From: Acidobacteriota bacterium
Lineage (GTDB): Bacteria > Acidobacteriota > UBA6911
DNA length: 39,571 nucleotides
Direction of reading: 5' to 3'
NCBI GenBank assembly: GCA_012719455.1
Contig: JAAYAJ010000042.1
Location: 1 to 39,571, forward strand
The position numbers and the translations under genes are program-made. Numbering within the stretch: position 1 is the first letter of the stretch; each line of letters opens with the position of its first letter. A model generated the notes under the pieces. That model saw nothing but the letters and a program-made list of their open reading frames with translations, did not search any database and was not told the origin of the DNA. This document shows, piece after piece, positions 2,952 to 11,261 of the stretch.

Positions 2952-4019
2952 CTAGCGCGCGGCCGGCTCCTGCTGGGTGATGCAGTGGATCCCGCCGTAG
3001 CCGTACACCAGCTCGACCGCCGGGATCGCCGCGATCTCGCGCCCGGGAAAGCAGGAGCGGAGGATGGCCACCGCTTCCCGGTCCATCGGGTCGCCGAACA
3101 CCGGCAGGAGCACCGCGGCGTTGCCGATGTAGAAGTTGGCATAGCTCGCCGGCAGCCACCGCTGCTCTTCTTCCAGCCAGATCGGCTCCGGCAGCGGGAG
3201 CGGAATCACCTCGAGCCGGTTGCCCGACTGGTCGCGGGCCGAGCGGAGGATGTCAAAATTTTCCTGCAGGACGGAGGCGTTCCCCCCCTTGCTGGAGGTG
3301 GAGGAGGCGCAGAGCACCCGGCCGGGGGCCACGAAGCGGGCGAAATCGTCGACATGCCCGTCGGTGTCGTCCCCGTCGATGCCCGATTTGAGCCAGACCA
3401 TCCGTTCGGTGCCGAGGTAGGCGTGGACGATCTCCTCGATCCGCTCCCGGGAAAGGGCGGGATTGCGGTTCGGGTTGAGGAGGCACTGCTCGGTCGTGAG
3501 CACGGTCCCGTGGCCGTTGACGTCGATCGAGCCCCCCTCGAGCACGATCCCCGGACGGAAGATCCGGTCCGAAAGGGTGGCCACCACGGCGTCCCCGGTG
3601 GCGTCGTCGGGAAGGATGTCGTCGTACTTCTCCCCCCAGGCGTTGAAGCGCCACTTCACCGCCGCGCGCTCCCCCGAATCGGGGTGGAGCAGGAAGGTGG
3701 GGCCGTAGTCCCGAATCCAGACGTCGGCGCTCGGGATGGACAGAAGTCTCACCCGGTCCATGACAGCGCCGTGACTCTCGAGCATCCGGGCGACGCGGAT
3801 GCGGGCAGCTTCGTCGTCGACCAGGATCCGGACGATCTCCCCGCGTGAGAGCGCCTGCACCATCCGGCAGTAGATCTCCTCCACCGCGCCGAGGATCTTT
3901 GCGGGGAAGGTGAGGGGGTTTTTCGGCCACGAAAGCCAGGTAGCCTCGTGTTCAACCCATTCAGCCGGCATCCGGAAGCCGGCCGCTTTCGGTGTCTCGT
4001 GGTTGTTCGCTTTCGTCAT
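2952..4019 (-). CDS. aguA: Agmatine deiminase
   Basis: The enzyme hydrolyses agmatine to N-carbamoylputrescine and ammonia, the second step of the arginine decarboxylase route to putrescine. Its 355 residues match the usual length of the peptidyl-arginine-deiminase-like family. Visible family motifs are an early WLSWPKNP, WIRDYGPTF, VLEGGSIDVNGHGTVLTTEQ with the following NPNRNP, and DGDDTDGHVDDFARF. The catalytic cysteine is Cys346 in the C-terminal GYGGIHCITQQ. The ATG overlaps the last 4 bases of aguB, so the pair is translationally coupled; aguB makes the next product in the pathway. No signal peptide is seen, so it is cytoplasmic. Confidence 0.95.
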   Translation of the reverse strand: MTKANNHETPKAAGFRMPAEWVEHEATWLSWPKNPLTFPAKILGAVEEIYCRMVQALSRGEIVRILVDDEAARIRVARMLESHGAVMDRVRLLSIPSADVWIRDYGPTFLLHPDSGERAAVKWRFNAWGEKYDDILPDDATGDAVVATLSDRIFRPGIVLEGGSIDVNGHGTVLTTEQCLLNPNRNPALSRERIEEIVHAYLGTERMVWLKSGIDGDDTDGHVDDFARFVAPGRVLCASSTSSKGGNASVLQENFDILRSARDQSGNRLEVIPLPLPEPIWLEEEQRWLPASYANFYIGNAAVLLPVFGDPMDREAVAILRSCFPGREIAAIPAVELVYGYGGIHCITQQEPAAR

Positions 4020-4888
4020 GGCGTCATCTCCCCCCGTTCGACGATTTTACGGTACTGGTCCGGGCGGCGGTTATGAAAGAAACGCCACCCTTCCCTCACA
4101 TTGCTGCCGTGGGCCAGGTCGACTTCGGCCAGGACCACTTCCTCCCCAGCACCCGCGCGCACGAGGGTCTTGCCGAAGGCGTCCAGGACGACGGAGCCGC
4201 CCCAAAAGTCCATTTGGTCTTCCTTACCCGCGCGGTTGACGGCGGCAACCACGCAGCCGTTGGCGATGGCGTGCCCGCGCATCACGTTTTCCCACGCCTC
4301 CTGCCAGTCCCCTTCTTCCTCCGGCATGCCCAGCACCCGGCCGATGGCCGTGGGATAGAAGATCATCTCGGCCCCCATCAGGGCGTTCACCCGCGCCGCC
4401 TCTGGAAACCACTGGTCATAGCAGATCAGGGTGCCGATCCGGCCGCTGCCTGTCTCATAGACTCGGAACCCGAGGTCCCCGGGGGTGAAGTAGTCCTGCT
4501 CGTAGAAACTCTCGTCGTGCGGGATGTGGATCTTCCGGTATTTTCCCAGGAGGTTCCCCTCCCGGTCGAACGTCATGCAGGTGTTGAACCGGCCGTTCGG
4601 GGCGCGCTCGTAGATCGACCCCGCCACGAGGATCACCCGGTTGTGCGCGGCGCAGGCCGAGAGCGCGCGTTCGGTCTCCCCGGGAATCGATTCCAGGAAC
4701 CGCTCCCCTTTTCCTTCCGGGCCGCGGTACTGGGCGAAATAGTGGGAGGTGAACAGCTCGGGCAAACAGACGACGTCCGCCCCCCGGCGGGCCGCCTCCG
4801 CGACGAGTTCGCACGCGCGCGCCCGGTTGCGCGCAGGATCGGCCTCCATGACCATCTGCGCAAGCCCGATGACGACCTTCCCGACCAT
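4016..4888 (-). CDS. aguB: N-carbamoylputrescine amidohydrolase
   Basis: This 290-residue protein is a nitrilase-superfamily amidase that converts N-carbamoylputrescine to putrescine, CO2 and ammonia. The Glu-Lys-Cys triad is visible as Glu44 (CLPELF), Lys119 (YRKIHIPHDE) and Cys156 (GTLICYDQWFPE). FTSHYFAQ after the Glu and HIPHDESFYEQDYFTPGD are typical of the AguB branch rather than of beta-ureidopropionases. The start codon follows AAGGAG at a 7-base spacing. It is the upstream partner of aguA (4-bp overlap) and lies 64 bases after lysC on the same strand. With aguA it forms a complete agmatine-to-putrescine module; the arginine decarboxylase needed to make agmatine is not in the window. 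Confidence 0.94.
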   Translation of the reverse strand: MVGKVVIGLAQMVMEADPARNRARACELVAEAARRGADVVCLPELFTSHYFAQYRGPEGKGERFLESIPGETERALSACAAHNRVILVAGSIYERAPNGRFNTCMTFDREGNLLGKYRKIHIPHDESFYEQDYFTPGDLGFRVYETGSGRIGTLICYDQWFPEAARVNALMGAEMIFYPTAIGRVLGMPEEEGDWQEAWENVMRGHAIANGCVVAAVNRAGKEDQMDFWGGSVVLDAFGKTLVRAGAGEEVVLAEVDLAHGSNVREGWRFFHNRRPDQYRKIVERGEMTP

Positions 4889-4952: not shown

Positions 4953-6347
4953 CTAGCCGAGATCGAAAGCGTCGTGGATCGCCCGCACCGCCCGGTGCGC
5001 CTCCGACTGGTCCACGACGAAGGAGATGTTCAGCTCCGAGGAGCCCTGGGCGATGGCGATAACGTTGATGTCGGCCCGGGCCGCGGCGGTGAAGGTCCTG
5101 GCCGCGATCCCGGGAACCCCCCGCATCCCCTCCCCCACCACCGCGATGATGGAAACCGAGTCCCGGACCCGGACCGCCTCGACCGCCTTGCGCGCAAGTT
5201 CCGGGTCCAGCTCGGCGCGGAGTTCCTCGACCGCGCGGCGGCAGTCCTGCTCGGGGATGATAAGGCAGACGTTGTGCTCCGAGGAAGCCTGCGAGATCAT
5301 CATGACGTTGACGCCGACGCGGGCGAGCGCGGCGAAGAGGCGCGCGATGACCCCGGGCGCCCCCATAAGGCCGCTCCCCTCCACGGCCACCAGGCCGAGC
5401 TTGTCGATGGAGGTCACGTTCTTGACGATCTTGGCGGAGCTGTTGCCCGCGCTCGAGATCAACGTCCCCGGGTGGGAAGGGTTGAAGGTGTTCTTGATCC
5501 GGATCGGGGTGCCATGCTCGATCGCCGGCTGCATCGCCTTCGGGTGGATGACCTTGGCCCCGAAATATGACATCTCCGCCGCCTCCCGGTAGGAGATCTC
5601 GCCGAGCGGCGACGCCCCCTCGACCACCCGCGGGTCGGCCGTCATCACCCCGTCGACGTCGGTCCAGATCCAGATCTCGCTGCATCCCAGGGCGGCCCCG
5701 ACAATCGACGCGGTGTAGTCCGACCCGCTGCGCCCGAGCGTGGTGGTGATCTCCTCGGCGTTCGAGGCCACAAAGCCGGTCACCACGGGGACCACGCCCG
5801 ACTCCACCAGGGGGAGGAGGGCGGCCCGGATCCGGTCATTGGACACGGCGATATCAACCGCCGCCTCGCCGTAGCTGCTGTCGGTGCGGATCAGCGGGCG
5901 CGCGTCGACGAAGCGCGCCGGGATCCCGCGCGCCTCGAGGATGGCGGCGATCTGCATGCAGGAGAGGAGTTCGCCGAAGGAGGCGATGGCGTCGAGCGAG
6001 CGCGGGCTCAGCTCCCCGAGCAGGTGCACGCCGCGGAAGAGGGTCTCGAGCTTGTCGATCAGCTCCCCCTGCTCCCGGACAAGGCGGTCCCGCGCATCCC
6101 CCGGCTCCACCAGCGCCATGACGATCTCGAGGTGCTTCCGCCGGAGCTCCTCCGTATTGCGGAGCCCCTCATCCTTCTTCCGCTCGAGCGCCAGGCGCGC
6201 CGTGCCCAGAAGCAGGTCGGTCACCCCCGACATCGCCGAGGCGACCACGACCGGCCGCCGGGACAGGTGGGAGCGCACGATGGCCGCGACTTCGCACAGG
6301 CGCTGTGCGTCACCGACCGAGGTTCCGCCGAATTTCATCGTAATCAT
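4953..6347 (-). CDS. lysC: Aspartate kinase (lysine-sensitive type layout)
   Basis: This enzyme phosphorylates aspartate, the first step to lysine, threonine and methionine. It has 464 residues. The kinase domain opens with KFGGTSVGDAQR and contains FGELLS and the GRSGSDYTAS nucleotide/aspartate loop. Two ACT regulatory domains fill the C-terminal third (for example LVAVEGSGLMGAPGVIARLF and VSIIAVVGEGMRGVPGIAARTF). The length is that of a monofunctional kinase with no homoserine dehydrogenase fused to it. I chose the ATG at 6347, about 10 bases after GAGGG. An in-frame TTG at 6353 would add two residues, and the ATG at 6338 gives the shorter MKFGG start. The ACT domains imply feedback control by an end-product amino acid; which one cannot be told. 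It heads the lysC-aguB-aguA run. Confidence 0.93.
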   Translation of the reverse strand: MITMKFGGTSVGDAQRLCEVAAIVRSHLSRRPVVVASAMSGVTDLLLGTARLALERKKDEGLRNTEELRRKHLEIVMALVEPGDARDRLVREQGELIDKLETLFRGVHLLGELSPRSLDAIASFGELLSCMQIAAILEARGIPARFVDARPLIRTDSSYGEAAVDIAVSNDRIRAALLPLVESGVVPVVTGFVASNAEEITTTLGRSGSDYTASIVGAALGCSEIWIWTDVDGVMTADPRVVEGASPLGEISYREAAEMSYFGAKVIHPKAMQPAIEHGTPIRIKNTFNPSHPGTLISSAGNSSAKIVKNVTSIDKLGLVAVEGSGLMGAPGVIARLFAALARVGVNVMMISQASSEHNVCLIIPEQDCRRAVEELRAELDPELARKAVEAVRVRDSVSIIAVVGEGMRGVPGIAARTFTAAARADINVIAIAQGSSELNISFVVDQSEAHRAVRAIHDAFDLG

Positions 6348-6515
6348 AGGCAACCGTCCCTCACAGGTTCATGGCGGCGCCCGCCGGCGGACGCCGTTCC
6401 GGGGGGAAAGGATATCACACTCTCCGTCCCAGGCCCCCCGGTCAATGGAGATAATGGCCCAATCCACCCCGGGATGCGGTAAAATAACTGGCTTATCGAT
6501 CCAAGGAGGTTTTCG

Positions 6516-7442
6516 ATGTACCGCGGCAAGTACCCCCCCATCACCCTGACGCCCACCCTTTTCCAGCTGGGGACCCCGGCATTCCCCGCCTTCCTGTCAC
6601 TGGGCGAGAGCGCCATGCTGATCGAGGGGGGCACCGGCCCCACCTTTCCCATCCTGGTGGAACAGATCCGGTCGCTCGGCGTCAGCCCGGAAAAAATCCG
6701 GTTCATCGCCCTGACCCACACCCACGCGGACCACATCGGGGGGATCCCCCATTTGAAGCGCATCTGGCCCCACGTCCGCGTCATCGGGAGCGCCGCGGCG
6801 GAGAAGATCTTCCAGAAGCGCGAGCTCTTCCACGAGTACCTCCTGGCCGATGCCGCCATCGCCCAGCTGATGAAGATCAAGGGCGAAATCGAGGACCTGC
6901 CGCCGTTTCTGCCCGACTACCATTTCGGGCTGGACGCCGTCGTGCAGGAGGGGGAACGGATCGACCTGGGAGGAGGAGTCGTCTGGGAGGTCTACGAGAC
7001 CCCGGGGCATTCCCCCTGCCACGTCTGCTACCTGGAGCGTTCGGAGGGGACGCTGGCGATGGGCGACGCCACCGGCTTCTACGTCCCGGAAAAGGACGCC
7101 CTGTGGCCGAACTATTTCGTGTCCCTCCCCATCTACCTCGACAGCATCCGCAAAATAGCCGCCCTGCCGGCGGCGCGCGCCGTCCTGGGCCATAACTGCG
7201 TCCTGCACGGCTGGGTCCGCGAGCACTTCGAGTACGCGCTGAACGCCACGGAGAAGTACCACCGCAACCTGCTCACGCGGCTCCAGGCCGGGGAGAGCGC
7301 GGAGAAGATCGCCGTCGACAGCGCCCGCTTCGTCGACGGGATCACCGACGTCCAGCCCTTCCGGGTCCTGTACGACCTCAGCCGGCTCCTGATCAAACGG
7401 TCACAGAAGGCGGGGCCCGACGTCTCCTTCGCCCTCGAGTAG
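6516..7442 (+). CDS. Metallo-beta-lactamase-fold hydrolase
   Basis: This 308-residue protein carries the full metal-binding set of the superfamily: H68-T-H70-A-D72-H73, then His165 (TPGHSP), Asp184 (GDATGF) and His226 (GHNCVL). This suggests a dinuclear zinc or iron hydrolase. The C-terminal part (residues about 235-308) is helical and resembles the tail found in many uncharacterised MBL hydrolases; the substrate is not evident. A near-perfect ribosome binding site, AAGGAGG, lies 6 bases before the ATG. No signal peptide is seen, so it is cytoplasmic. It is divergent from lysC, and the 165-base gap from the next gene suggests it is its own unit. Confidence 0.85.
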   Translation: MYRGKYPPITLTPTLFQLGTPAFPAFLSLGESAMLIEGGTGPTFPILVEQIRSLGVSPEKIRFIALTHTHADHIGGIPHLKRIWPHVRVIGSAAAEKIFQKRELFHEYLLADAAIAQLMKIKGEIEDLPPFLPDYHFGLDAVVQEGERIDLGGGVVWEVYETPGHSPCHVCYLERSEGTLAMGDATGFYVPEKDALWPNYFVSLPIYLDSIRKIAALPAARAVLGHNCVLHGWVREHFEYALNATEKYHRNLLTRLQAGESAEKIAVDSARFVDGITDVQPFRVLYDLSRLLIKRSQKAGPDVSFALE

Positions 7443-7607
7443 CCGGAACCGCGAGCGGCCGCCCGCCTTCTTGGCAAACCCGGCGGTCTCCCCTGAAGTA
7501 GCGTTTCGCGCCGGCCGCAAAAGAGTGTACAATCGCACCATCAGCGCCGACGGGTTTTCACGCCTCCGGCACCCGAAGCGCAATCACCGGACCCGATGGG
7601 AGACCTT

Positions 7608-9056
7608 ATGACAATCCATGCAGGAAGGCGTACCTTCATAAAAACCACCGCCATGGCCGGCATCGCCGCAACCCTCCCGGTCGCCGGCCGCGCGGGCCGG
7701 GGCGCCGTTATGCCGGCCGCAAAGCCCGGCACAGGGCCGAAACATCTGCTCCTGCTGAGTAATGACCCGAAGAACTACGAAGGGTGGATCGCAACCGTCC
7801 AATCAGCGGCGGGAAAAAACCTCCGGGTATCCTCCCTGAAGGTGGACTACCAGAAGCCGGATGAAATCATCCGCGTTCTTCGGACGCAGCAGATGGACAT
7901 CCTGCTTCTGTGCCTGCCCCACCGCACCTTCAATTTCGGAAGCCTGTATGACGCCATGGGCGATTTGCGCGCTCCGGTGATCGTGCTCTCGGCAAACCCC
8001 GACCTGATCCCCATTGACGCCAACCTGGTGGCCTCGCTGAGGGGGAACGGCGCCAACGTCCGCTTCGCCCTGTCCCGCGACCAGGCGGCGGACCTTGTCG
8101 GGATTGTCGCCGCGCCCGGGATCCTGCAGGACCATCGCGCGGTGCTCTTTGGAAAACCGTTTGATTCCACCACCGTCCCCGCCCGCAACCTGACGGAAGA
8201 CAAGGTCTACCGGCATACCGGCGTAAAAATGGAGTACCGGCCGCTTGCCGAACTGGCGTCACAATACCGCAGCGCCGATGAAACCGCCGCCCGCAAGGAA
8301 ATGCAGCGGTGGAAGAAAGAGGCGACGGAAGTCGTCAATGTCCCGGATGAAACGATCCTCGATGCCTGCAGGTTGTACGTGTACCTGCGCGCCATGGTGG
8401 AACGGGAGGGCTTGTCGGCGGTGTCCATGGATTGCCTCGGGTTTACCATGAGCCCCGACCCCATCCTTCCCTACCCTTGCCTGGCGTTTGCCAGGCTGAG
8501 GGACGACGGCATCACGGCCGCCTGCGAAGCGGACGTGTGCGGCATGCTGACGTCGATGTTCTTGGAAAGGGCCAGCCGGAAGCCTTCCTTCATGTGCAAT
8601 ATCATGTCGCTCGACGCTTCCGGTTCCAAAATCCTCCTGAGCCATTGCACTTCCGCGCTGAAGCTGAACGGCCCGGCGGCGCCGCCCCTAAAATACAGGC
8701 TCCACAACTACCACAATTTCGGCAAAGGGGTGGTGCCGGAGGTCGCTTTCCCGCTAGGGAAGGAAGTCCTGCTCGGCGGGTTCAGCAAGGACCTGAAAAG
8801 CTTTGCGGCATGGCCCGGCCGCATTCAAACCCAGCTGCAGGATACCGAGAAAACCACGGCCGCCGACGGCACGCCGCTCAACGCGTGCGCCAACACCATG
8901 GAGGTGAAAATCAGGGACGCCGGCCGTTTCCTCCAGAACATCAACGGACTCCATCAGGTCATGGTTTTCGGCGACTACACGAAAACCATCGGCGATGCAT
9001 TGTACGGAATGAACGTGAGCCTGGTCGGGCCGGCGGAATTCAACCCTCCGGCGTAA
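7608..9056 (+). CDS. Tat-exported sugar-isomerase-like protein (FucI/AraA superfamily)
   Basis: This 482-residue protein starts with a twin-arginine signal (RRTFIK at about residues 7-12, then a hydrophobic stretch to about residue 28), so it is probably exported folded to the periplasm. The mature part resembles the L-fucose/L-arabinose isomerase superfamily. An N-terminal Rossmann-like half is followed by a C-terminal half with SMDCLGF, PCLAFARLRDDG, CEADVCGMLTSM, NIMSLD and LSHCTS. By analogy the metal ligands would be Glu307, Asp336 and His346. Members are normally cytoplasmic ketol-isomerases, so an exported version is unusual; it may act on a free sugar or may have another function. I start it at ATG 7608, which follows GGGAG; the ATG at 7596 would put four extra residues before the signal. 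The next gene also encodes a Tat protein. Confidence 0.75.
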   Translation: MTIHAGRRTFIKTTAMAGIAATLPVAGRAGRGAVMPAAKPGTGPKHLLLLSNDPKNYEGWIATVQSAAGKNLRVSSLKVDYQKPDEIIRVLRTQQMDILLLCLPHRTFNFGSLYDAMGDLRAPVIVLSANPDLIPIDANLVASLRGNGANVRFALSRDQAADLVGIVAAPGILQDHRAVLFGKPFDSTTVPARNLTEDKVYRHTGVKMEYRPLAELASQYRSADETAARKEMQRWKKEATEVVNVPDETILDACRLYVYLRAMVEREGLSAVSMDCLGFTMSPDPILPYPCLAFARLRDDGITAACEADVCGMLTSMFLERASRKPSFMCNIMSLDASGSKILLSHCTSALKLNGPAAPPLKYRLHNYHNFGKGVVPEVAFPLGKEVLLGGFSKDLKSFAAWPGRIQTQLQDTEKTTAADGTPLNACANTMEVKIRDAGRFLQNINGLHQVMVFGDYTKTIGDALYGMNVSLVGPAEFNPPA

Positions 9057-9127
9057 ATCCATAGCGGTCCGCACCTGCGGAAATGACATCCGGGCACATC
9101 CCGGGTCCATGAAAAGGAGAAGCAGCC

Positions 9128-9808
9128 ATGATTTCAGTTCCCGAAAAGCAACAAGGAACGACAAGGCGGGGATTCGTGAAGGAACTCACCGGCAACGCCG
9201 CCGGATTGGCCCTGGCCGGCGTTTTAGCGGCCGCGTTCAGGCCGCTCCAGGAGAGCTTTGCCCAGGAAATCGGCGGATCCGGTGGGAGCGCTTCCCAGGC
9301 GTCCGGGTCGAAATACCGCAAGTGTTTCCTCAACGAACTGACCCCGGAGGAAAGGGAAATCGGCTACGGCGCCATGAAGATGTTCACGGCCTTTACCGAC
9401 GACGACATCATCGAAGGGAGTAATTATTTTTCGGTCATGTGGATGAGGGAAAGCTCCACCAAGACCATGGGGCACGGCCCGCACACGCACCCGGTCCCGG
9501 AACTCCTGGCCGCCATCGGCTCCGACCCCGACAACCCGATGGACCTGGGGGCGACTTTCGAAATGTACATGGGCGAGGAGATGGAAAAGCACATCATCGA
9601 CAAATCGACCCTGATCTACGTGCCTCCCGAAACCGTTCACTGCCCGTTCACCATTTTAAAATTCACCCGCCCGTTCATCTTCATCCAGGCGCACTACGGC
9701 CCCAAGCTGGTGGAAACCCCGAGACAGGACCTGGTGCCGGAGGAGATGAGGAGCAAGTACATTTTCATCAAGAGCGACGGCAAGTCGCAGAAAAAACCGA
9801 AGAAGTAG
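9128..9808 (+). CDS. Tat-exported cupin-like protein
   Basis: This 226-residue protein has a twin-arginine signal (TRRGFVKE at about residues 12-19, hydrophobic core to about residue 38). The mature part looks like a cupin: a first metal motif H116-G-P-H119-T-H121-P-V-P-E125 and a second with His171 in YVPPETVHCPF. That gives the two-histidine-plus-Glu and later His pattern of metal-binding cupins. No specific enzyme family could be assigned. The start is set by AAGGAGA 8 bases upstream. It lies 71 bases after the exported sugar-isomerase-like gene on the same strand, so the two are probably co-transcribed and may act on the same carbohydrate. That link is inference only. Confidence 0.65.
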   Translation: MISVPEKQQGTTRRGFVKELTGNAAGLALAGVLAAAFRPLQESFAQEIGGSGGSASQASGSKYRKCFLNELTPEEREIGYGAMKMFTAFTDDDIIEGSNYFSVMWMRESSTKTMGHGPHTHPVPELLAAIGSDPDNPMDLGATFEMYMGEEMEKHIIDKSTLIYVPPETVHCPFTILKFTRPFIFIQAHYGPKLVETPRQDLVPEEMRSKYIFIKSDGKSQKKPKK

Positions 9809-9819
9809 GGACCTGCAAC

Positions 9820-9841
9820 GGCGGCGGCGATTGCCGCCGCC
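9820..9841. terminator. GC hairpin between convergent genes
   Basis: A 9-bp stem (9820-9828 with 9833-9841) and a 4-base loop lie between the convergent cupin-like gene and the conserved unknown gene. No T tract follows on either strand, so termination here is only suggested by position. Confidence 0.35.
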
Positions 9842-9844
9842 CCC

Positions 9845-10612
9845 CTATTCCATGCCGAACATCGGTTCGCCGCCCAACTCGGCCAGGATCCCGCGGGCGC
9901 ACTCCTCCTGCTCCGCCGTTCCCGAGATGGCCAGCCAAACGGCCCCTTCCGCTCCGCCCACTCCGCCCGCCGCCACCAATTCCGCCCTGGCGCCGGTAAG
10001 GATCCCGACAGCCTCCAGTTCCGTCACAACCTCCCCCGGAACGGGAAGCATCCGTGCCCCGCTTGCGCCCGGCGCGTTCAGCCGCGCGGCGATCTCCTTC
10101 AGCCCGGTCGAGACCCGCTTTTCGAGCCCGACGGGAAGGATGAGGCGAACGCGCCTTCCGACCACCGCCTGCAGCGCCGCCACGATCGTCCCCCCCGCCG
10201 GGTGCCCGACAAGGACTCCCGCCCCCCCTGCGGGGTCGACGGCATTGGCGCCCTTGAGAATGACGTCCCCCTGCTCGAGTTCATCGATGACGTCGTATAT
10301 GTTCTTCCCCTTCAGCCACTCCCCTTTCCGGATGACGACATCGCCCGGAAACCCGCCTTCGCTGGACAACCGCCCACTATCCGCCGTCTTCGCGCCTGGC
10401 GGCAAGGTGATCCCGCGGAAAAACCCTTTGCGCGAAAACCCGTCCCGCTTGCCGCATTCCTGCAGCAACTCCTCGGCCACGTATCCGTTGGTCGTTCCCG
10501 CGACAATCACGACGGTGCCGGATTCCAGCGCCCTCCTTATCGCCGCGTGCTTGACAAGCGCCCTGGCGATCAGCCGCTTTCCAGCCGCCGGTGTAATTAC
10601 TGTCTGGATCAT
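9845..10612 (-). CDS. Conserved protein of unknown function with TTNGYVAEE motif
   Basis: This is a 255-residue soluble protein without a signal peptide. Its most distinctive stretch is [19 protein letters not shown] (about residues 32-50). Later it has [30 protein letters not shown] and a Gly/Ala-rich C-terminal half ([18 protein letters not shown]). I recall similar proteins as uncharacterised in archaea and various bacteria, but cannot name a family or function. The repeated Gly-rich loops after beta-strands suggest a nucleotide- or phosphate-binding fold; that is inference. AGGA lies 8 bases before the ATG. It is flanked by a GC hairpin downstream and the AT-rich patch upstream, and has no obvious partner. 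Confidence 0.7.
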
Positions 10613-10793
10613 ATCGTTAGTCCTATCCTCCAGCCTTTGGTATCAGCGACGCCGCGCTTGGCATAGCCGGCATCGACCCCAGACAAATGGCCGCTTTTAT
10701 TCCGTCGAACCCCTGATGCGAGTTTTCGCTTAACTGCGCCGCCGCAAGTCTCGCTTTTGAATGTTCTGATTTTGTGGCGAACATTAAGCAGTT

Positions 10794-11261
10794 TCACATT
10801 AATGAGCCTTCCTTCCACTTGATATGCAGACCATTATTAATAATAAATACAAAAAGGCTTTGAGTCGCTTCTTCTATCGCATCATAAAAGGAAAGATTGA
10901 TTGCATGAAGAGTCTCCTCCTCATGCATTTCATACAGAGAAATGCGGAGCTCGTGATCATCGGGGGGCATCCCGTTAGGAAATAAGTCAAAGGCACGCTT
11001 AATTGCTTCAATTGCAGAACTTGCATTGATGGCTCTGAATGCTTGAAACATCTGTCTGTAGTTTGAATCCCCCGGAAACTCAGATTGAAAAAGATATTTA
11101 AACCCCCCGTTCTCAATAATTCCGATAGCAGTCCATACGAGTACAATTACACGTTCATTTTCTGGAAAATCATTTGTATCGGAATCTTCTCCGTATTTCT
11201 CAATTATTCTTCTGTTTATCTTGTCGCACAGACTCCATTCATATGCTCTATCATTATTCAT
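10794..11261 (-). CDS. DUF4375 (DMP19-like) domain protein
   Basis: This 155-residue protein has the pattern of the DUF4375 domain: an early helix, then VWTAIGIIENGGFKYLFQS, with 'NGGF.Y.F' as the hallmark, followed by AFRAINASSAIEAIKRAF and LFPNGMPPDDHE. Members occur alone or as likely immunity or accessory proteins in polymorphic-toxin loci; their biochemical role is not established. The gene is clearly richer in A and T than its neighbours and no strong ribosome binding site is seen before the ATG. It is the last gene of a run of small minus-strand genes at 10794-12070 that looks acquired. Confidence 0.65.
   Translation of the reverse strand: MNNDRAYEWSLCDKINRRIIEKYGEDSDTNDFPENERVIVLVWTAIGIIENGGFKYLFQSEFPGDSNYRQMFQAFRAINASSAIEAIKRAFDLFPNGMPPDDHELRISLYEMHEEETLHAINLSFYDAIEEATQSLFVFIINNGLHIKWKEGSLM

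Follow-up and report, generated by a model that had tools for sequence, protein, structure and literature searches.

A Tat-signal protein of the FucI/AraA superfamily with asparagine at a catalytic aspartate position, and its neighboring cupin, in an acidobacterial genus

Sugar isomerases of the FucI/AraA superfamily are, in the textbook picture, cytoplasmic enzymes. What, then, might a relative of theirs with a twin-arginine signal be doing next to a cupin with a signal of the same kind? The question is raised by two adjacent genes, here termed P1 and P2, on a 39,571-nucleotide contig from an Acidobacteriota genome (the whole contig being the window, C15 of a 107-contig, 2.79 Mb, 97% complete assembly, G000), and an earlier note made from the letters of the DNA had offered a periplasmic sugar-modifying module as the answer. 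Both open reading frames of that note are real and lie on the same strand, with 71 bp between the stop of P1 and the start of P2 (Table 1). Translation of P1 likely begins at 7608, downstream of GGGAGACCTT; residue numbers here are nevertheless counted from the start of the longest ORF at 7596, and are the earlier note's numbers, which fit the start at 7608, plus four. No RNA family was found in 6000-10800, and a search of 7300-10000 gave no promoter-like site and four terminator-like sites with 3.8 expected. The MBL-fold gene upstream (6516-7442) keeps its position in genome G113; it is left outside the two-gene unit considered below because nothing in the G104 stretch matches it. Elsewhere in the window, overlapping reverse-strand genes (2952-4019 and 4016-4888) read as an agmatine deiminase and an N-carbamoylputrescine amidase, putatively of a polyamine route.

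Table 1. Window coordinates of the two genes and of the signals and residues discussed
Feature	Position	Strand	Remark
P1	7596..9056	+	486 aa from longest ORF; start at 7608 likely, giving 482 aa; FucI/AraA-superfamily Tat-signal protein, as assigned from sequence
P2	9128..9808	+	226 aa ORF; single-domain cupin with Tat signal, as assigned from sequence
GGGAG upstream of the GGGAGACCTT-preceded P1 start at 7608	7598..7602	+	plausible ribosome-binding site; sequence
AAGGAG upstream of P2	9113..9118	+	plausible ribosome-binding site; sequence
GRRTFIK, P1 twin-arginine motif	7623..7643	+	sequence; RRxF in most A1 rows
TTRRGFVK, P2 twin-arginine motif	9158..9181	+	sequence; signals of paralogues near-identical
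Glu311 codon (Glu307 of the earlier note)	8526..8528	+	equivalent of FucI Glu337 / AraA Glu306
Asn335 codon AAT	8598..8600	+	aligns with FucI Asp361
Asp340 codon (Asp336 of the earlier note)	8613..8615	+	frequent, not invariant
His350 codon (His346 of the earlier note)	8643..8645	+	HC motif
His453 codon	8952..8954	+	likely site of the C-terminal metal His (FucI His528)
Cupin metal residues H119, H121, E125 of P2	9482..9502	+	invariant in 26 aligned rows
Cupin metal residue H171 of P2	9638..9640	+	invariant in 26 aligned rows

The first step concerns location, and both products are probably exported in folded form by the Tat system. The twin-arginine signals already pointed out, GRRTFIK in P1 and TRRGFVK in P2, are present, and the source genome encodes TatC (E 1.7e-68). 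In the P1-family alignment of the source genus (A1; 21 rows, P1 included) RRxF is found in 19 rows, the remaining two starting at contig ends. It is found in every row of a wider alignment, A2, whose 25 P1-family rows comprise 10 of the source genus and 15 picked from 18 distant relatives, the three omitted being L018, which is short, L030, which has a long N terminus with the twin arginines further in, and L075, which is without a Tat motif. Curated Tat models do match both proteins, albeit weakly and below cut-off. For background, which is rough since the set has redundant members and the relatives are among them, RRxF[LIVM][KR] falls within the first 45 residues in 30 of 1043 ORFs of at least 150 aa. 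For P2, the signal persists in the relatives from G113, G104 and G266 (88%, 72% and 57% identity, respectively, in A3, an alignment of 26 rows hand-picked from the collected cupins) but not in those from G188 and G037 (51 and 42% in A3; 52% across the matched part), which are among the 10 A3 rows lacking the motif; the other 16 have it. Over all 58 non-redundant cupin ORFs collected, the motif occurs in 18, and other cupin types carry Tat signals with nearly the letters of that of P2.

As to what P1 is, the likeness to FucI/AraA that the earlier note saw is borne out by profile comparison, and membership of that superfamily, for the central and C-terminal domains, is the assignment the sequences support. 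A profile-profile comparison (hhalign) of A1 with 15 cytoplasmic FucI-type proteins yields E 7.7e-22 (probability 99.4, 391 columns), A2 against the same proteins yields E 8.2e-29, and a PDB search with the A2 profile reaches chains of L-arabinose isomerase, AraA, at E 2.9e-7. Common to P1 and FucI/AraA, in addition to the homology over those 391 columns, are the CE-x-D, HC and C-terminal His motifs, whereas P1 is set apart by its Tat signal, by Asn at the position of FucI Asp361 and by having no Pfam AraA or Fucose_iso match of its own. Of the two database comparisons that had been proposed, then, the one with PDB leads to AraA but the one with Pfam names no enzyme domain in P1, returning a weak Tat signal only; among the 25 A2 members 14 touch AraA_central weakly (E <= 0.1). 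The best named model for P1 is that of the sulfoquinovose isomerase SftI (NCBIfam NF048012; E 1.4e-9), matched also by 23 of the 25 A2 members. SftI as the identity of P1 is ruled out because the score is 37.2 bits against a cut-off of 700 and residues 200-354 alone align. Searching plasmids with P1 brought eight distant matches, of which seven carry the annotation fucose isomerase or L-fucose/L-arabinose isomerase family and one has none; the viral contigs searched held no relatives of P1 or of P2. A structural model of P1, built with one relative (two sequences), is below usable quality (mean pLDDT 41). Foldseek with this low-confidence model puts AraA chains 15th and 23rd (TM about 0.24) and response-regulator receivers first, the latter fitting any Rossmann-like first domain.

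A different use of the fold is hinted at by the N-terminal part of P1, which in PDB profile searches is weakly similar to periplasmic binding proteins (E 0.008 to 0.8), with Peripla_BP_4 similarity in one of the 25 A2 members. Together with the loss of one catalytic acid, treated below, this would suit an exported protein that descends from the FucI/AraA fold and binds a ligand without catalysis, such as one that senses or carries a sugar-like compound. However, resemblance to binding proteins is expected of that domain because of the shared Rossmann-like fold, and in the catalytic half conservation is strong at Glu, His and Cys; a binder of this sort is considered unlikely.

The catalytic half is where P1 departs from its cytoplasmic relatives. 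In the published account (PMC6894278), Mn in FucI is bound by Glu337, Asp361 and His528, and Glu337 and Asp361 carry out the proton transfers. Alignment of P1 to the cytoplasmic set places Glu311 in the CE-x-D motif, His350 in the HC motif, His453 at the C-terminal His pair and Asn335 at an invariant Asp; of the FucI ligand set Glu311 and His453 are kept and the Asp361 position is Asn. Counted over 56 non-redundant family rows with gaps set aside, Glu311 is conserved in 52/52, His350 in 53/53 and His453 in 52/52, and residue 335, which 53 rows cover, is Asn in 27 and Asp in 26. Asn occupies it in all 23 source-genus rows that cover it (one being a shortened copy of another) and, beyond the genus, in L082 from a sister genus and in L173, L174 and L175 from other families. 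Asp is found there in 15/15 cytoplasmic rows, in 26 rows from other genera and in L075, a G298 protein of 480 aa that is more distantly related, is outside the 56-row table and has no Tat motif. A quick tree of 65 rows, made after six short rows had been dropped and with column 335 omitted, unites the 21 genus rows kept in one clade (SH-aLRT 100%, stem 1.99 changes per column) and needs three changes for the letter at residue 335, its deeper branching order being unsure because of long branches, about which the program warned. L173, L174 and L175, Asn-type and without a Tat motif ('MANP'), may be an older Asn branch.

The statement of the earlier note that the likely metal residues remain, naming Glu311, Asp340 and His350 under its own numbers, accordingly needs amendment. 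The Glu and the His hold; Asp340 is rejected as the equivalent of FucI Asp361, since it sits five residues past that position, which is occupied by Asn335, and is not invariant. In every genus row Asn takes the place of one of the FucI site's two acids, and the C-terminal His453 had gone unnamed.

Because Asn335 is present in all genus rows where cytoplasmic relatives have Asp, it is improbable that P1 works as an ordinary ketol isomerase, and such activity must be called doubtful on the alignments. There are nonetheless ways in which P1 could be a working periplasmic ketol isomerase: it might tolerate Asn335, or use Asp340 or Asp313 as the base instead. Glu311, His350 and His453 are conserved, as just described, Asp313 is Asp in 50/52 family rows, and Asp340, which could in principle replace the lost acid, is Asp in 18/23 genus and 46/53 family rows. 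However, besides the uniform Asn335, the five genus rows without Asp at 340 (K in three, N in two) include the 57%-identical copy of G266 (L006), and only 3/15 cytoplasmic rows have Asp at that position. The suggestion is judged improbable for P1. It may suit others better, as FucI-like proteins with Tat motifs occur in other genera, in several families of the phylum (L012-L032, L163, L164), that belong to the same superfamily and retain Asp335, and for this reason could be isomerases; at 17-22% identity to P1 (15 aligned in A2), these may be true exported ones. Among the Asp rows of the tree the Tat motif is present in 22/25, the N terminus of L018 and of L072 looking short and the twin arginines of L030 lying further in.

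For P2, the H-x-x-H-x-H-x-x-x-E site and later His171 reported by the earlier note are both there (H116-x-x-H119-x-H121-x-x-x-E125 and H171). The 26 rows of A3 all share H119, H121, E125 and H171, but not H116, and the HxH(x)3E ... H motif marks P2 as a probable metal cupin. E151 and E153 are also invariant in A3 and H155 is nearly so; residues 149-155 belong to a second conserved set, MGxExExH, of the cupin family. Pfam has no match for P2 itself; the paralogous L113 cupin, which the family profile of P2 also recruits, passes Cupin_2, and the A3 profile finds cupins in PDB, 7eqk (E 4.6e-4) and 6j4b (E 0.009). With these small single-domain cupins P2 has the HxH...E...H motif and flanking strands in common, and it differs from them in its Tat signal, in having GxDPxNPxDLG inserted ahead of the second motif and in the missing Pfam match. 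The model of P2 alone, with the signal removed, is below usable quality (pLDDT 33).

The distribution of P2 is narrow and its multiplication within that range considerable. Relatives at E <= 1e-3 occur in 10 of 396 genomes of the phylum, all of the source genus (one of 210 genera), and in none of the 386 others; outside the phylum P2 was searched for in plasmids and viral contigs only, and those plasmids yielded relatives neither of P2 nor of its paralogue, the L105 cupin. Matches per genome number 4, 6, 12, 13, 17, 19, 21, 22, 30 and 34, with 13 in the source genome, in a search that covers P2-like cupins only and in which two matches can be domains of one gene. The expanded family takes single, Tat-motif and two-domain forms (e.g. 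L107, L109, L113, L114).

Whether the two genes belong together is a matter of their recurrence side by side. Copies of P1 of at least 56% identity exist in four genomes, and adjacency, put forward earlier as a check, is seen in three of them, with P2 following P1 at 71 bp in G000, 71 bp in G113 and 45 bp in G104, but not in G266, whose P2 relative is on a contig other than that of the P1 copy. Further pairings involve other members of both families. At G113:C8 and G000:C57 a different Tat-motif cupin lies 1373 and 1365 bp, respectively, from a P1-family gene, the gene between being what we take, from a motif, for an esterase of GDSL/SGNH type, and at G298:C48 a third type of Tat-motif cupin is 222 bp from a P1-family gene. 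Thus at six of 20 P1-family loci a Tat-motif cupin is within 1.5 kb, against 0.26 expected, the six involving three different Tat-cupin types. The loci are not independent, and because the six fall into only three ortholog groups, probabilities calculated for this excess come out too optimistic. (The 20 omit contig-end fragments and weak matches, namely G172:C186, G172:C102, G242:C75 and G104:C164, as well as G250:C673, the second match in G250:C100, G266:C110 and G298:C31.) At G266:C242 a cupin without Tat motif is 5.5 kb away, and at 13 of the 20 loci no cupin is within about 6 kb, although at six of the 13 the sequence stops short of 6 kb in one direction or both; P1-family proteins and cupins are therefore not obligate partners. 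The last figures, the absence of adjacency in G266 and the sheer abundance of cupins would fit a chance event, in which members of two expanded families came to adjoin a single time and three close genomes then inherited the arrangement. That explanation is quite improbable given the two additional, non-orthologous pairings with other Tat-motif cupins and the excess over expectation. That P1-family genes and Tat-motif cupins pair non-randomly is supported.

On the compound concerned, neighboring genes give only a hint. Selected neighbors of P1 paralogues and of the cupins include Tat-motif FAD oxidoreductases, carboxylesterases, GH3 with PA14, MFS transporters, an AFOR_C-domain protein and ETF-QO, several others having no family match. 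Tat-motif FAD_oxidored proteins (PF12831) are encoded near both P1 paralogues and cupins, at L097:5970-7472, L101:6597-8114, L101:14661-16145 and L106:13680-15206. Ten selected neighbors of the Asp-type relatives are mixed (Nramp, aldo/keto reductase, SASA esterase, DUF481, TPR, beta-helix, methyltransferase, and three without a family match). Esterase and GH3 genes lie close to some other copies of both families, which makes a plant-derived glycoside or phenolic plausible as the source; the genes around P1 and P2 in the window do not themselves indicate glycosides.

The reading preferred here, tentatively and at a little short of an even chance, is of a two-gene unit in which a Tat-exported, metal-site P1 without the usual isomerase chemistry and a metal cupin, P2, deal with a shared compound or with successive ones. 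Both products would leave the cytoplasm folded through Tat and act outside it. P1 would adopt a FucI/AraA-like fold, with Glu311, Asn335 and His453, perhaps also His350, as ligands of a divalent metal, and would be unable to run the two-acid ene-diol proton shuttle; for want of that shuttle it would perform another step on a polyhydroxylated ligand, e.g. a lyase reaction, dehydration or epimerisation, or else ligand recognition. Metal-bound P2 would act on the compound of P1 or on the next one, derived, plausibly, from a plant glycoside or phenolic. Counting against this two-gene reading are the P1-family loci with no cupin nearby, the small number of ortholog groups among the pairings, the aligned cupins that lack a Tat motif, the silence of the window's other genes on glycosides, and that Asn can still bind metal and Asp340 or Asp313 might act as base. 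A bolder version, which we regard as rather unlikely, is that an exported FucI/AraA branch has abandoned two-acid chemistry through the change of Asp to Asn and, in the one genus with the cupin expansion, teams with Tat-exported cupins as periplasmic metalloenzymes for a reaction that neither family is known to perform. A literature search in a collection with few subscription journals found no paper joining fucose isomerase with twin-arginine or a cupin with a Tat signal and, within the same scope, nothing relevant on the cupin expansion, the sulfoquinovose isomerase link, the AraA ligand residues or the PDB entries.

The most telling facts are the Asn clade of the P1 family and the genus-limited expansion of the cupins. 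If the two-gene reading is true, the relatives with Tat signals from several families of the phylum, one branch of them minus a catalytic acid but with the remaining site intact, would be isomerase-fold proteins performing periplasmic chemistry of another type. The genus-restricted cupin expansion provides a defined set of proteins with which to hunt for the substrate.
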